Part shown: positions 18,001 through 26,437 of the stretch, one piece after another
Position numbering within the stretch: position 1 is the stretch's first letter
Layout of the letters: each line of letters starts with the position of its first letter
Origin: Candidatus Tectomicrobia bacterium
GTDB taxonomy: Bacteria; UBA8248
Direction: 5' to 3'
Length of the DNA stretch: 50,009 nucleotides
NCBI GenBank assembly: GCA_016192135.1
Contig: JACPUR010000031.1
Location: 1-50,009 of the forward strand
Made by a program: the position numbers and the translations under genes
The notes under the pieces: model-generated
Told to the model about the DNA's origin: nothing
What the model saw: the letters and a program-made list of their open reading frames with translations, nothing else
The model's database searches: none

Positions 18001-18297
18001 ATGCCGAAATGGTCCCACAAGGATGAGCGCCAATACGAGCACATCAAAGAGAGCTCCCGGAAGCGGGGAGCATCCACGAGACGGGCGAAGGAAATCGCCG
18101 GCCGCACGGTGAACAAGCGGCGCCGCGAGGAGAGCCGGACGCCCAATAGGCGGACGCAGGGCACCGGGAACCCCAGGTGGGGGCTCGAGGCGCGCTCCAA
18201 GGAAGAGCTCTACAACATCGCCGGCGAGAAAAACATCGGGGGCCGGAGCAAGATGAACAAGGCCGAACTCGTCGAAGCGATCCGGAAGAGCCGCTGA
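18001..18297 (+). CDS. Small basic Rho_N/SAP-like protein (plasmid stabilization protein family)
   Basis: 98 aa, very basic. The N-terminal half (MPKWSHKDERQYEHIKESSR, then AKEIAGRTVNKRRREE) is the pattern of short proteins often labelled plasmid stabilization protein. The C-terminal 35 residues (SKEELYNIAGEKNIGGRSKM, then NKAELVEAIRK) form a Rho termination factor N-terminal (Rho_N/SAP-like) helix-extended-loop-helix that binds nucleic acid. ATG 18001 has AAGGAG seven bases upstream; the frame is open far upstream but that part is noncoding. Relatives are commonly stress-induced in soil bacteria. It lies between the stress-type dehydrogenase and ligD, which fits a stress or DNA-protection role. 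Confidence 0.82.
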   Translation: MPKWSHKDERQYEHIKESSRKRGASTRRAKEIAGRTVNKRRREESRTPNRRTQGTGNPRWGLEARSKEELYNIAGEKNIGGRSKMNKAELVEAIRKSR

Positions 18298-18341
18298 TTT
18301 GGACTCATGCGGGGCGTGCCGCCCGCTCCGGGAAGGCGCCG

Positions 18342-21032
18342 ATGATTTCAGCCCCCCAGTTAAAGGAATACCGCCGGAAGCGCGACTTCAAGCGCACCCC
18401 TGAGCCAAAAGGCACGCCGGAGCGGGCCGCCGAGGGGCGTACCTTTGTCGTCCAAAAACACGACGCCACCCGCCTTCACTACGACCTGCGCCTCGAGATG
18501 GGCGGCACCCTCAAGAGCTGGGCCGTCCCCAAGGGACCGAGCCTGGACCCGGGCGAGAAGCGCCTGGCGGTCCGCGTGGAGGATCACCCGCTCGAATACG
18601 GCGGCTTCGAGGGGACCATCCCCGAGGGGGAGTACGGCGCGGGGTCGGTTCTCGTCTGGGACCGTGGGCGGTGGGAGCCCCTGGGAGATCCCGACGAGGG
18701 CTACCGGAAGGGCAAGCTCCATTTCCGGCTCCACGGCGAGAAGCTCAAGGGAGGCTGGGTGCTCGTGCGCATGGGAGGGGCACGGGGCGAGGACGGCAAG
18801 AACTGGCTCTTCTTCAAGGAAAAGGACAAAGAGGCGGGCAAGAAAGACATCCTCAAGGAGCGCCCCGAGAGCGTCCTGAGCGGCCGCCGCATCTGGGGGG
18901 CCGGGCCGGCGGCGGAGGACGGGAGGCGGAACGGGAAGAAGGCCCCGCCCGAGCCCGCCGCGCCGGAGAAGCTCACGGGCCGAAAGGCGGGGCGCCCGCG
19001 CCGTAGGCGGCCCGGGATGGCTCCCGCCGGCCTCCACAACGCTCGAGGGGCGCCCCCGCCGAGCAGGCTCGCCCCCCAGCTCGCCACCCTCGTCCCCAAG
19101 GTCCCCGAAGGGGACGGCTGGCTCCACGAGATCAAGTTCGACGGCTACCGCATCCTCTGCCGCCTGAGAGAGGGCGAGGTGCGCCTCATCACGCGGGGCG
19201 GGAAGGACTGGACGGCCCGCTTTTCCGGCGTAGCCCGCGCCTGCGCCGGGTTCCCGGCAAAGGAGGCCATCCTCGACGGCGAGGTGGTCGCCTTGCGGGA
19301 GGACGGGACCTCCGACTTCCAGGCCCTGCAAAACTCCCTGAAGGGCGGCTCCGACGCTCCCATCGTCTACTACGTCTTCGATCTTCCCTATGCGGACGGG
19401 TTCGATCTCAGGAAGTCCCCCCTCATCGAGCGGAAGGAGCTGCTGCGGCGCCGGCTGGAGAGCCGCGCCGGGATGGATTCCCACCTGCAGTACAGCCAGC
19501 ACGTGCAGGGAAAGGGGTCGGAAGTCTACGGCCACGCCTGCCGGATCGGGGTGGAGGGCGTCGTCTGCAAGAAAGCGGGCAGCGAATACCAGCCCAAGCG
19601 CACGAAGACCTGGCTCAAGGTGAAATGCACCCGCCGGCAGGAGTTCGTCATCGGCGGCTTTACCGACCCCGGGGGCTCGCGCCGGGGGTTCGGCGCCCTT
19701 CTGCTGGGCTGCTATGACGGGGATGATCTCGTCTATTGCGGGAAGGTGGGGACCGGCTTCGACGACGCCCTGCTGGTCGACCTGGCCGGGAGGCTCAAGC
19801 GGATGGAGCGGAAGGCTCCCTCCTTCAAGAACCCTCCCCGCGGCCCAGAGGCCCGTGGCGCGCACTGGGTGCGGCCGGAGCTGGTGGGGGAGGTGGCCTT
19901 CACGGAGTGGACCGGGGACGGCTCGCTGCGCCACCCGGCGTTTGTGGGCCTGCGGGAGGACAAGCCGGCCCGCGAGGTGGCGCGCGAGAGCTATGGGTTC
20001 CTGCCCGGGGGGGACGGGCGGGGTGGCCGCTCGTCCAAGCCAAAGAAATCCCGGAAGAGGGCGACGAAGAAAAACCGCGCCTCCGCCGGGCCCGCCAAAA
20101 AGAGGGGGACCCGATCGGCCCGCAAGGAGCCGGAGGAGACCGTGGCGGGCGTCCCCCTGTCGAACCCCGGCCGCGTCCTCTTCCCCGAGCAAGATCTCAC
20201 CAAGCGCACCCTCGCGGAATATTACGAGCGGATCGCGGAATGGGCGCTCCCCCACGTCGCCGGCCGCCCCCTCACCCTCGTCCGCTGCCCCCAGGGGCAC
20301 GCCAAGGACTGCTTCTTCCAGAAGCACATCGACGGCCCCATGCCCAAGGGCATGAGAGGGATGAAAATCCAGGAAAAAGCGGCGTCCGGCGCCTACCTCG
20401 TGGTCGATGATCTGCCCGGGCTCATCTCCCTGGTCCAGCTCGGGGTGCTGGAGATCCACACGTGGGGGAGCCGGGCGGACAATGTGGAGAAGCCCGACCT
20501 CCTGGTCTTCGACCTGGACCCCGACCCCGGCGTGAGGTGGGAGGACGTGATCGAGAGCGCGCGGGTGACGGGGGGACGCCTGGCGGAGCTGGGCCTCCGC
20601 AGCTTTGTCAAGACCTCGGGCGGCAAGGGCCTGCACGTCGTCGCGCCCATCGCCTGCAGGGGCGGCTGGGAGGAAGTCAGGTCGTTCGCCAAGGCGGTCG
20701 TGGAGGACATCTGCCGGGAGATGCCCGGCCGCTGCGCCGCCACCATGAGCAAGCCGAAACGGAAGGGGAAGATCTTCATCGACCATTTCCGCAACGGGCG
20801 GGGGGCGACCTCGGTCGCCGCCTATTCCACCCGCGCCAAGGCCGGCGCGCCGGTTTCCGCCCCCATCCACTGGGACGAGCTCTCCCCCCGCCTCAAGGCG
20901 GACGCCTTCAACGTCCAGAACGTCCCGAGGCGCCTCGCCTCCCTCAAGCGCGACCCCTGGGAGGGCTTCTTCCGGGTTCGCCAGTCGATCACGTCGGAGA
21001 TGAAGAAGACGCTGGGGATGGAAGAGAAATAG
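18342..21032 (+). CDS. ligD: ATP-dependent DNA ligase D (multifunctional NHEJ ligase)
   Basis: 896 aa with all three LigD modules in the order phosphoesterase, ligase, polymerase. The 3'-phosphoesterase spans about 30-180 (FVVQKHDATRLHYDLRLEMG). The ligase spans about 240-540, with the adenylated Lys265 in HEIKFDGYRI. The archaeo-eukaryotic primase-type polymerase spans about 600-890, with the metal site DLDPDPG (Asp724, Asp726) and KTSGGKGLHVV (about 757). Lys/Arg/Ala-rich linkers separate the modules. ATG 18342 follows GGAAGG. It repairs double-strand breaks together with Ku, encoded convergently just downstream. This module order matches the Pseudomonas-type LigD. Confidence 0.95.
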   Translation: MISAPQLKEYRRKRDFKRTPEPKGTPERAAEGRTFVVQKHDATRLHYDLRLEMGGTLKSWAVPKGPSLDPGEKRLAVRVEDHPLEYGGFEGTIPEGEYGAGSVLVWDRGRWEPLGDPDEGYRKGKLHFRLHGEKLKGGWVLVRMGGARGEDGKNWLFFKEKDKEAGKKDILKERPESVLSGRRIWGAGPAAEDGRRNGKKAPPEPAAPEKLTGRKAGRPRRRRPGMAPAGLHNARGAPPPSRLAPQLATLVPKVPEGDGWLHEIKFDGYRILCRLREGEVRLITRGGKDWTARFSGVARACAGFPAKEAILDGEVVALREDGTSDFQALQNSLKGGSDAPIVYYVFDLPYADGFDLRKSPLIERKELLRRRLESRAGMDSHLQYSQHVQGKGSEVYGHACRIGVEGVVCKKAGSEYQPKRTKTWLKVKCTRRQEFVIGGFTDPGGSRRGFGALLLGCYDGDDLVYCGKVGTGFDDALLVDLAGRLKRMERKAPSFKNPPRGPEARGAHWVRPELVGEVAFTEWTGDGSLRHPAFVGLREDKPAREVARESYGFLPGGDGRGGRSSKPKKSRKRATKKNRASAGPAKKRGTRSARKEPEETVAGVPLSNPGRVLFPEQDLTKRTLAEYYERIAEWALPHVAGRPLTLVRCPQGHAKDCFFQKHIDGPMPKGMRGMKIQEKAASGAYLVVDDLPGLISLVQLGVLEIHTWGSRADNVEKPDLLVFDLDPDPGVRWEDVIESARVTGGRLAELGLRSFVKTSGGKGLHVVAPIACRGGWEEVRSFAKAVVEDICREMPGRCAATMSKPKRKGKIFIDHFRNGRGATSVAAYSTRAKAGAPVSAPIHWDELSPRLKADAFNVQNVPRRLASLKRDPWEGFFRVRQSITSEMKKTLGMEEK

Positions 21033-21061
21033 AATAGAGAAACCCGCCGGCGGGGCGGGCC

Positions 21062-21922
21062 TCAAGCCGTCTTCCGGTGGCGCTCCTGAGCCTGGGGCTT
21101 GACCGCCGCGCGGGAGGGCCTGCGCGCCCGAGGCTCCTTCCGGCCGCCCTGCTTCTCCCGGAGACTCCGCTGCAGCGCCTCCATGAGGTTGACCACGCGC
21201 CCCCGGCCGCCCCCCTCGGCCGTGGCCGCGGTGACGAACTCCTTGCCCTCGGCCTTCGCCTCGATCAGCTTCTCCAGCTCCTCGCGGTATTCGTCGCGGT
21301 AGCGGGAGGGGTCGAAATCCGTCGTCATCTCGTTGATGAGCTTCATGGCGATGTCGAGCTCGCGGCCGGCCGGCTTCACGTCGCGCGGGATATCGAGCTG
21401 CCCGGCCTCGGCCACCTCGTCGCTGTAGTGCATGGCATGGAGGACGATGGCCCCGTCCCGGGGGCGCAGGATGGAGAGATGCTGCCGCTCCCGCATGACG
21501 AAATGGGCGATGGCGGCCGTCTTGCTCTCCTCCATCGCGCGGAGGAGCAGGCTGTACGCCTTCGCGGCGTTCTCGTCGGGGACGAGGTAGTAAGGCTTGT
21601 CGAAATAGACGGGGTCCACCTCCTCGATCCGGATGAAGGCGTCGATGGCGATGGAGCGTCCCTCGTCGGGCCGTAGCTTCTTGAGTTCCTTCTCGTCCAT
21701 CAGGATGTACTGGTCGGGCGCGATCTCGTAGCCCCTCGCCGTCTCGTTGAAGTCGTACTCCTCGCCGGTTTCCGGGCAGTAGAGCTTCCGGCGGAGGCGG
21801 CAGGACCCGTCCGGGTTCAGCAGGTGGAACCGCACGCTCTTCTCCCGTACCACGGTTTGCAGCTTCACCGGGATGTTCACTAGCCCGAAGCTGATATTTC
21901 CGCTCCAAATCGATCGCGGCAC
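21062..21922 (-). CDS. ku: Ku protein, non-homologous end joining
   Basis: 286 aa, normal length for bacterial Ku. It opens MPRSIWSGNISFGLVNIPVK, the family signature, and carries the core (YCPETGEEY, GYEIAPDQYILMDEKEL, PVYFDKPYYLVPDE) plus the conserved tail helix DFDPSRYRDEYREEL. The last 45 residues are Lys/Arg/Ala-rich, as in the DNA-binding C-terminal extension of many Ku proteins. The homodimer rings DNA ends and recruits LigD, whose gene ends 29 bases away on the opposite strand. The pairing makes a complete minimal NHEJ system. Confidence 0.96.
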   Translation of the reverse strand: MPRSIWSGNISFGLVNIPVKLQTVVREKSVRFHLLNPDGSCRLRRKLYCPETGEEYDFNETARGYEIAPDQYILMDEKELKKLRPDEGRSIAIDAFIRIEEVDPVYFDKPYYLVPDENAAKAYSLLLRAMEESKTAAIAHFVMRERQHLSILRPRDGAIVLHAMHYSDEVAEAGQLDIPRDVKPAGRELDIAMKLINEMTTDFDPSRYRDEYREELEKLIEAKAEGKEFVTAATAEGGGRGRVVNLMEALQRSLREKQGGRKEPRARRPSRAAVKPQAQERHRKTA

Positions 21923-22019: not shown

Positions 22020-22439
22020 TCAGCGGTGCGCCGACACCTCCTCGAGCGCCTTTCCGGCCATCTCGACTTCCTCGCTGCGGACCGCGAAATCACCCAGCGA
22101 GATGATACCCACCAGGCGCTTGTCCCTGTTCAGGATCGGAAGGCGCCGGATCTGCTTGTCGGACATGAGCTTGGCCGCCTCGTCGATGTCCTGGTCCTCG
22201 AAGCAGTAATGGACGCCCGGCGACATGGACTCGCGGACGGACGCCTTCCTGCAATCCTTTCCCCCGGCCACCGCGTTCACCACGATGTCCCGATCCGTGA
22301 TCGTCCCCACGATCCGATCGTTCTCCCCGACGGGCAGCATGCCGAAATTGCCCTTTTTCATCGTGGCGGCGGCGTCTGTCAGAGTGGCGTCCGGCGAGAT
22401 GACTTTCACATCCGTGCTCATGATTTCCCGAATCTGCAT
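22020..22439 (-). CDS. CBS domain pair protein
   Basis: 139 aa made of two CBS motifs: MQIREIMSTDVKVISPDATL with GTITDRDIVV, and VRESMSPGVHYCFEDQDIDE with LVGIISLGDFAV. CBS pairs bind adenine nucleotides or related ligands and regulate partners; free-standing pairs like this one are often stress-induced. There is no effector domain. GAGGTGAAAGGTC precedes ATG 22439. It lies 43 bases downstream of the rhodanese gene on the same strand, so the two are probably cotranscribed. Confidence 0.9.
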   Translation of the reverse strand: MQIREIMSTDVKVISPDATLTDAAATMKKGNFGMLPVGENDRIVGTITDRDIVVNAVAGGKDCRKASVRESMSPGVHYCFEDQDIDEAAKLMSDKQIRRLPILNRDKRLVGIISLGDFAVRSEEVEMAGKALEEVSAHR

Positions 22440-22482: not shown

Positions 22483-22800
22483 CTACCCGTGAACCGGAAG
22501 GCCCGCGTTCTTCCAGCCCTCCACTCCGCCCCGCAGGGCGAAAGCATTCCTGAAACCCTTCATCCGGTATTTCTCGGCCTGACCGGCCGCGGTGGCTTCC
22601 TTGGGTCAGGCGCAATAGAAAATGAGTTCCCGATCCTTGCCCAGGTTTCCCGCGCGCTGTTCGAACTCCCGCAGGTTGAGGGAGCCCTCCAGGTTTATCT
22701 TCTTGCATTTCTCTTCTTCTTCATAGGCGCACACCAGCAGGGCTCCCTCTTCCATCTTGCCGTAGGCTTCTTTCGCGCCGATGCGCGGGACGTTAGCCAT
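22483..22800 (-). CDS. Rhodanese-like selenoprotein (in-frame UGA at 22606-22608)
   Basis: Reading through one TGA gives a complete 105-residue rhodanese domain. It begins MANVPRIGAKEAYGKMEEGA; the central part is GKDRELIFYCA, then UGA, then PKEATAAGQAEKYRMKGFRN and the typical C-terminal LRGGVEGWKNAGLPVHG with TAG at 22483. Rhodaneses with a YCACPxEATSA active loop are common, so the UGA (codon 65) replaces the second Cys, and Cys63 remains. I infer selenocysteine. Without readthrough the protein would stop after 64 residues, inside the active loop. GGAGGAG lies seven bases before ATG 22800. A compact SECIS-like hairpin follows the UGA. It is upstream of and probably cotranscribed with the CBS gene. 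Function is likely sulfur or selenium transfer or a redox role; the substrate is unknown. Confidence 0.85.
22575..22589 (-). promoter_or_regulatory. Candidate bacterial SECIS hairpin for the rhodanese gene
   Basis: On the minus strand CGGCC (22589-22585), loop GGTCA (22584-22580) and GGCCG (22579-22575) form a 5-bp all-GC stem with a five-base loop. The loop begins 21 bases after the UGA, within the usual 16-37 range, and GGU at the loop tip matches the SelB-contacting GGUCU loop of E. coli fdhF. It is wholly inside the coding frame. Confidence 0.72.
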
Positions 22801-23091
22801 CGGGATGCTCCTCCGGAGCCTGCCTTTTGAGGCGCAGGCCCTTCCTCATTGTGAATTTTGGCGGCGCTTCAGGCGAGACAGGCGTTTGGGAGGGCCCAAG
22901 AGCGGGCCCCTTCAAAAATTTGGGCCGGGCCGGAGGATGAAGCAAGGGATTTTCTGCGGAGCACCCGCAAGGGCGAAACGGGAGCAAAGCCTGCGATACG
23001 ACCGGCGGGAGCCCGGCCTCTTGCCGGACACCGCCGCCTCGGCGATTGCTCCGGCCGCGGGCCGGGCCGCCGGAATCCGGCGCGGCGCGGG
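22801..23091. other. Intergenic region, no gene supported
   Basis: 290 bases upstream of the rhodanese gene and downstream of the M29 gene (both minus strand). It contains the rhodanese ribosome site and a GC-rich palindrome (GCCGGAATCCGGC, about 23070-23085) without a T tract, which could act as a weak transcript end for the M29 gene. Nothing else stands out. Confidence 0.5.
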
Positions 23092-25384: not shown

Positions 25385-26437
25385 ATGGCCACCGTCCTCT
25401 CCACCGCCCGGCGCCTCGGCGGCTACCGCTACACCCAGGCCGAGATCGAGCCCTGGCTCAGCCGCTGGCTGGAGGGGAACGGCGAGGCGAGGGAGCGCGC
25501 CATCCGCATGTGCCGCAATTCCCAGGTCGGCGCCCGCGCCTCCGTGGTCCCCATCGAGGAAGTCTTCCGCGAGCGCACGTTCGAGGAGAAGAACGACATC
25601 TACCGGGAGAACGCGATCATCCTCGCCGAGGACGCCGCCCGCCGCGCCCTCGAGGAGGCCGGCGCCGCCCCGGAGGAGGTGGACATCATCATCTCCGTCT
25701 CCTGCACCGGCTTCATGATCCCCGCCGTGGACGCCTACCTCATCAACCGCCTGGGCCTCCGCCCCGAGGTGAAGCGCCTCCCGATGACCGAGATGGGCTG
25801 CGCGGCCGGCGCCACAGCGCTGGCCCGAGCCTGGGAATACCTGCGGGCCTTCCCGGAGCACAAGGCCCTCGTCGTCTCCGTCGAGCTGGCCACCCTCACC
25901 TTCCAGCCCCGAGACTTCTCCATGGACAACCTCGTCTCGGCCGCCATCTTCGGCGACGGGGCCGCCGCCGCCGTCCTGGGCGGAGCCCCCGGGCCCGGCG
26001 CCCGCATCGAGGGCTGCCGCACCACCACCCTCCCCGGGACCCTGCACCTCTTCGGCTTCCGCCTCTCGAACACCGGCTTCCGCATCATCCTCTCGCGCGG
26101 CATCCCCGCCGCCGTCCGGGCCCGCCTCAGGCCCATCGTCGAGGGGTTTCTCGGGGAGCACGGCCTCGCCCTCCCCGAGGTCCGCCACCTCATCTTCCAC
26201 CCGGGCGGCAAGCGCATCATCGAGGTCTACCGCGACGAGCTGGGCCTGCCCGAGGAGGCGCTGCGCTTCTCCGCCGCCATGCTCAGCGCCCACGGCAACC
26301 TCTCCTCGAGCTCGGTCCTCGTCATCCTCGACGACATCCTCCGCCGCGGCGAGGCCGCGCCCGGGGACGCCGGCCTCCTCCTCGCCATGGGCCCCGGCTT
26401 CACCATCGAGCAGCTCCTCCTCCGCTGGCACGGCTGA
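25385..26437 (+). CDS. Type III polyketide synthase (chalcone/stilbene synthase family)
   Basis: 350 aa, normal length. The Cys-His-Asn triad is visible: Cys139 in MTEMGCAAGA, His272 in IFHPGG and Asn305 in SAHGNLSSSS. The C-terminal GPGFTIEQLLLRW is the usual GPG loop. It condenses malonyl-CoA units onto a CoA starter; bacterial members make alkylpyrones, alkylresorcinols or tetrahydroxynaphthalene. GGAGG lies nine bases before ATG 25385. The isoprenylcysteine methyltransferase-type or oxidoreductase partner genes that often follow are absent, so it is a single-gene unit with its own terminator. The product is not predictable. Confidence 0.92.
   Translation: MATVLSTARRLGGYRYTQAEIEPWLSRWLEGNGEARERAIRMCRNSQVGARASVVPIEEVFRERTFEEKNDIYRENAIILAEDAARRALEEAGAAPEEVDIIISVSCTGFMIPAVDAYLINRLGLRPEVKRLPMTEMGCAAGATALARAWEYLRAFPEHKALVVSVELATLTFQPRDFSMDNLVSAAIFGDGAAAAVLGGAPGPGARIEGCRTTTLPGTLHLFGFRLSNTGFRIILSRGIPAAVRARLRPIVEGFLGEHGLALPEVRHLIFHPGGKRIIEVYRDELGLPEEALRFSAAMLSAHGNLSSSSVLVILDDILRRGEAAPGDAGLLLAMGPGFTIEQLLLRWHG

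Follow-up and report, generated by a model that had tools for sequence, protein, structure and literature searches.

Gene content of the window

Our study examined a window of 50,009 nt from a Candidatus Tectomicrobia bacterium, which carries on its minus strand a short rhodanese gene with a TGA codon in frame. The features of this locus, read with the TGA as selenocysteine (Sec), are as follows.

22483-22800, minus strand: predicted selenoprotein rhodanese gene, 105 aa by translation with TGA read as Sec; start codon ATG at 22800, stop codon TAG at 22483-22485
22810-22814, minus strand: Shine-Dalgarno sequence GGAGG, 9 nt 5' of the ATG, read directly from the sequence
22729-22731, minus strand: codon of Cys24, inside the Cys-Ala-Tyr motif that replaces Asp-x-Arg
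22705-22707, minus strand: codon of Cys32
22612-22614, minus strand: codon of Cys63, which alignments match to the catalytic nucleophile of rhodaneses
22606-22608, minus strand: UGA codon of Sec65, the sole in-frame TGA; the loop reads YCA-U-PKEATAAG
22575-22589, minus strand: bacterial SECIS hairpin CGGCC-GGUCA-GGCCG, supported by covariation and synonymous-shuffle tests (CGGCC at 22589-22585, loop GGTCA at 22584-22580, GGCCG at 22579-22575)
22020-22439, minus strand: downstream gene with two CBS domains (Pfam CBS, 99.5 bits), 43 nt past the rhodanese stop

The CBS gene is possibly co-transcribed with the rhodanese gene, in an arrangement that was not conserved elsewhere. The window also holds convergent genes for LigD (primase-polymerase, phosphoesterase and ligase) and Ku at 18177-21922, which form a bacterial non-homologous end-joining pair, and a type III polyketide synthase gene of the chalcone/stilbene synthase family at 25385-26437.

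A first-pass annotation of this DNA had described a complete rhodanese domain with one TGA at 22606-22608 but had not named the strand, and this description was borne out by the translation, by Pfam (Rhodanese, PF00581; 31.7 bits, above the gathering cut-off of 22.2), by an AlphaFold2 model with Cys in place of Sec65 (pLDDT 92.9, pTM 0.86) and by a fold search, in which the best PDB matches were rhodaneses. Cys63 aligned with the nucleophile of solved rhodaneses, and every one of the 63 alignment rows had Cys in this column, Sec being counted as Cys. The loop CAUPKE is two residues longer than the loops of solved single-domain rhodaneses, and in the AlphaFold2 model the predicted helix begins at residue 66, immediately past Sec65. 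The protein is probably cytosolic.

Conservation of the SECIS hairpin

The hairpin that had been annotated, a 5 bp stem with the loop GGTCA beginning 21 bases past the TGA, was recovered at 22589-22575, with the stem starting 17 nt and the loop 21 nt past the UGA. This geometry (GGUCA loop, 5 bp, 21 nt) agrees with the published bacterial SECIS model, at least as that model is quoted in PMC13188914. Conservation in relatives, proposed as a check by the first-pass annotation, was pronounced: among the matches listed, the full five-pair stem was present in 82 % of 55 genes of the clade to which the window protein belongs (the window clade), compared to 6 ± 3 % after shuffles in which the amino acids were fixed and synonymous codons redrawn. 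For 54 window-group genes among the matches listed, which as related genes are not independent observations, stem cells were paired in 97.8 % of cases, compared to 19-54 % with a slid partner, and stem covariation was 0.279, compared to 0.105 ± 0.014 in shuffles, none of the 500 reaching the observed value. The encoded Ala-Ala and the search pattern leave no freedom at pairs 19-29 and 20-28; the evidence for a SECIS is carried by the wobble pairs 18-30 and 21-27 plus pair 17-31. Pair 18-30, in which both bases are third codon positions, was seen as UA in 29 genes, CG in 19, GC in two, UG in two and AU in one.

The stem was also present in L018, L019 (the same as record L163) and L036, three relatives that only the protein search had picked up. 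The relatives that retain Asp-x-Arg displayed the same trend, with all five pairs in 24 % of the matches listed compared to 3 % when shuffled. The mean folding-energy z across 131 genes was -1.06 for the hairpin, compared to +0.18 for the adjacent stretch. Eight homologues with Cys at the Sec position (YCxCPNE or similar), obtained as controls from plasmid records of Burkholderiales and Xanthomonas, formed a mean of 3.1 of the five pairs, compared to 4.85 for Sec genes, and one of the eight formed all five. This comparison shows that selection has maintained UGA65 as a Sec codon together with its SECIS hairpin.

Selenocysteine machinery of the host

The host genome encodes a tRNA-Sec (74.8 bits, above cut-off, anticodon TCA, that is UCA) and, by profile searches, SelA (540 bits) and SelB (389 bits). 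The selA and selB genes lie about 1 kb apart on contig C15, and the rhodanese window is on contig C31. SelD was not found in the host assembly; the best HMM match (83.5 bits; cut-off 125) reads as a ThiL-like protein, and a SelD from the same genus used as a query gave weak matches only. In the phylum, sampled as 18 genomes of one family, tRNA-Sec was present in 16 of the 18 genomes and SelD, with one in-frame TGA, in 14, including both same-genus genomes. The gene that neighbours SelD in a same-genus genome, a gene conserved in another genus of the family, likewise had no close match in the host (best 38 % identity), and an assembly gap is the simplest reading of the missing SelD.

Taken together, the clade-wide stem when set against shuffles, the covariation at wobble positions, the tRNA-Sec, SelA and SelB of the host and the hairpin-poor Cys homologues make it close to certain that the UGA encodes Sec. 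The same evidence, with about 100 relatives, upholds the first-pass assignment of a Cys-Ala-Sec active site, and the gene product is, as judged by comparative sequence analysis, a small genuine selenoprotein of rhodanese fold in which Sec lies two residues past the usual catalytic Cys.

Relatives and their two groups

A protein search of 193 genomes found the closest matches in Candidatus Abyssobacteria-type genomes (G041 and G188), whose genes carry UGA at the corresponding codon. The pattern Y[C/U]xUPxEx[T/S][S/A][A/V]xxA, scanned against GTDB genomes, gave at least 120 loci; about 117 of the matches listed were genuine and three looked spurious. At least 100 relatives with UGA were distributed among Desulfobacterota, Acidobacteriota, Rokubacteria, Nitrospirota, Planctomycetota and others. 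Alignment with Cys and Sec rhodaneses, also suggested in the first-pass annotation, placed UGA in close relatives and Cys in more distant ones, and a single match had Ser at this position. None of the observations that the first-pass annotation had named as refuting its reading was made. The exact pattern CxCPxE occurred in 0 of 386 genomes of a broad sample. Within the host phylum, the gene was detected in only one of the 18 genomes at E≤1e-6, being absent from the 16-17 other same-family genomes searched.

Phylogenetic inference with FastTree split the matches listed into two main groups, with moderate branch support for the window clade. This clade reads Leu-Leu-Val-Cys-Ala-Tyr where rhodaneses have Asp-x-Arg, the Cys of this motif being present in 54 of 56 members among the matches listed, and the Cys32 position is occupied by Cys in 35 of these 56 and by an aromatic residue in 21. 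The other group retains Asp-x-Arg and includes membrane fusions to VTT/DedA domains as well as other forms. Arg stands five residues past the catalytic Cys (Cys+5) in classical rhodaneses, and an acidic residue was found at this position in the CxU and UxU (Sec-x-Sec) matches of the unbiased protein search; the pattern-derived set provides no evidence on this point, since Glu at Cys+5 was required by the pattern. Comparison shows the active loop to be Cys63-Ala-Sec65-Pro, with an acidic residue in place of the ordinary rhodanese Arg. An all-against-all comparison of open reading frames neighbouring the clade loci revealed no partner in common beyond one Geomonas-type group. Two window-clade genes (L091:3508-4209 and L075:3476-4873) bear C-terminal extensions that by eye look YHS-like and patatin-like.

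Among the matches listed, the first Cys of the loop was also encoded by UGA in seven window-group genes (L078, L079, L091, L104, L138, L152 and L020) and 13 genes of the other group (L057, L068, L077, L130, L135, L021, L041 and others), in several separate branches. One genome has adjoining rhodanese genes of which one is UxU (L020) and one CxC (L037; G033:C60:78192-78923). In the sister group, rather than in the window clade, a UxU rhodanese (YUAUP) was joined in one frame to a multihaem cytochrome at six loci among the matches listed (L048:3145-4821, L101:5538-7217, L147:4721-6652, L155:4183-5859, L131:1-1452 and, partial, L051), five of the six with eight CxxCH motifs. These fusions come from metagenome-assembled genomes of Syntrophales and other Deltaproteobacteria and have a hydrophobic segment at the N terminus that looks like a signal peptide. 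The term 'UxU' is absent from the texts of two reviews of selenoproteins, PMC9312934 and the newer PMC13188914, neither of which lists such a rhodanese, and our literature search found no paper combining rhodanese, selenocysteine and 'UxU'.

Comparison with known rhodanese families

The first-pass annotation regarded Sec beside a sulfur-carrying Cys as an unusual centre. The Cys-Ala-Sec loop stands, but the implied novelty is weaker, as the CxU rhodanese has for years been a catalogued form of prokaryotic selenoprotein (PMC9312934, PMC13188914). It is named COG0607 form 2 in PMC9312934 and 'Rhodanese-like domain-containing protein form 3' in PMC13188914, where it corresponds to NF041203 (rhodanese_LYCAU) with one Sec. 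The window protein resembles this form in its rhodanese domain, its Cys-x-Sec loop (YCAUP) and the bacterial SECIS past the UGA, yet it differs from NF041203 in having Cys-Ala-Tyr for Asp-x-Arg and a further Cys, and no membrane or secretion extension. NF041203, an equivalog model, was its best family match, although the score of 60.9 bits fell below the curated cut-off of 115, as did those of its clade mates (56-66 bits), whereas two members of the other clade, L048 and L052, exceeded the cut-off. On these comparisons the window protein counts as a CxU rhodanese when the term is taken broadly, in a clade beyond the reach of NF041203, and members of this clade may already have been counted in earlier surveys.

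The DedA/VTT-rhodanese fusions of Burkholderiales and Acidobacteriota share the loop (YCxCPNE or YCxUPNE), the Sec65 position being filled by either Cys or Sec, and CxU examples were found at L053:6503-7441 and L126:1923-2873. Unlike the window protein, they possess an N-terminal membrane domain and retain Asp-x-Arg; their Cys versions lack the hairpin and, in Burkholderia and Xanthomonas, bear the annotation DedA family protein/GlpE. The single-domain rhodaneses GlpE and YgaP share the fold (TM-score about 0.65-0.75) and the Cys63 position, but their loop is two residues shorter and has no Sec. GlpE has Gly plus Arg or Ser where the window protein has Pro and Glu, and CAUPKE does not fit the GlpE-type loop CxxGx(R/S) of canonical length. 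Rhodanese selenoproteins of forms 1, 2 and 4 (UxxS, UxxG) and TsoB (UxxxxU) likewise combine a rhodanese domain with Sec; as read from the motifs in PMC13188914, however, their Sec replaces the catalytic Cys itself, in contrast to the Cys+2 position seen here.

Discussion

The explanation that we favour, with a probability of about one-half, is that Cys63 and Sec65 form a selenenylsulfide centre and that the protein reduces or relays sulfane sulfur instead of serving as a thiosulfate:cyanide transferase. In this scheme Cys63 would take up sulfane sulfur, or react with a persulfide or polysulfide, and Sec65, at the start of the next helix, would attack the Cys63-bound sulfur. Sulfide would be released, leaving a Cys-Sec selenenylsulfide, and a thiol donor, possibly aided by Cys24 and Cys32, would re-reduce the centre. 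The modelled position of Sec65 at the N-terminal end of a helix is a setting expected to stabilize the selenolate. This redox reading is based upon the two chalcogens one residue apart, the exchange of Cys for Sec at the first loop position in several branches, the acidic Cys+5 residue and the predicted helix start at residue 66. The UxU rhodanese-octahaem fusions point to a role in electron transfer, though they are from the other clade; the genome context does not name a substrate, because the window clade has no conserved neighbour.

Several alternatives were weighed against this redox centre. The protein could be an ordinary sulfurtransferase that passes sulfur from thiosulfate or a persulfide donor to a thiol acceptor; Sec65 would then do no more than adjust or accelerate the step in which the Cys63 persulfide gives up its sulfur. 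The rhodanese fold, the sulfurtransferases and persulfide enzymes among the nearest solved structures and the existence of Cys counterparts with the same loop are all consistent with this, but the acidic residue at the canonical Arg position, the Cys-Ala-Tyr that stands for Asp-x-Arg in the window clade and the longer loop argue against it, and we consider it a credible but rather doubtful account. A role in carrying selenium has been proposed for rhodaneses (PMC9369223), and a Sec-containing loop in a gene that occurs in Sec-using genomes could bind selenide, keep the selenium in perselenide or selenosulfide form and deliver it to SelD. However, only one of 18 genomes of a Sec-using phylum has the gene at the threshold used, so Sec synthesis can proceed without it, the gene does not adjoin selA and selB, and a carrier that itself requires Sec would be circular; this role therefore appears unlikely.

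A Cys-Sec pair that is carried by the rhodanese fold and reduces peroxide, metals or metalloids would accommodate the four potentially redox-active residues of the window protein (Cys24, Cys32, Cys63 and Sec65) and the haem and membrane fusions of the other clade. Neither the neighbouring genes nor the fusion partners of the window clade suggest peroxide or metals, however, and we judge such a role distinctly improbable. That the UGA is instead a true stop, or the gene a decayed pseudogene with a 64-residue product, would agree with the standard code and with the failure to find SelD in the host assembly. Against this, the frame, the loop and the C-terminal half are conserved beyond the UGA, an identical UGA and covarying hairpin recur across unrelated phyla, and tRNA-Sec, SelA and SelB are present in the genome. 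This interpretation was rejected, with a negligible chance of being correct, on the conservation past the UGA and the covarying hairpin.

These findings have a practical consequence for annotation, as the NCBI CxU model misses the window clade and its genes risk being annotated as truncated proteins of 64 residues. The natural exchanges of Cys and Sec at both loop positions, alongside the membrane and haem fusions, make the role of CxU rhodaneses directly testable. More tentatively, the Cys-Ala-Tyr clade could represent a functionally separate family with up to four redox-active chalcogens in 105 residues, in which the catalytic Cys is itself exchanged for Sec in some lineages to give a Sec-x-Sec centre, and one hairpin apparently serves both UGA codons. 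Should this be true, the octahaem link of the sister clade would mean that sulfane-sulfur (or selenium) chemistry is coupled directly to electron transfer in this family.
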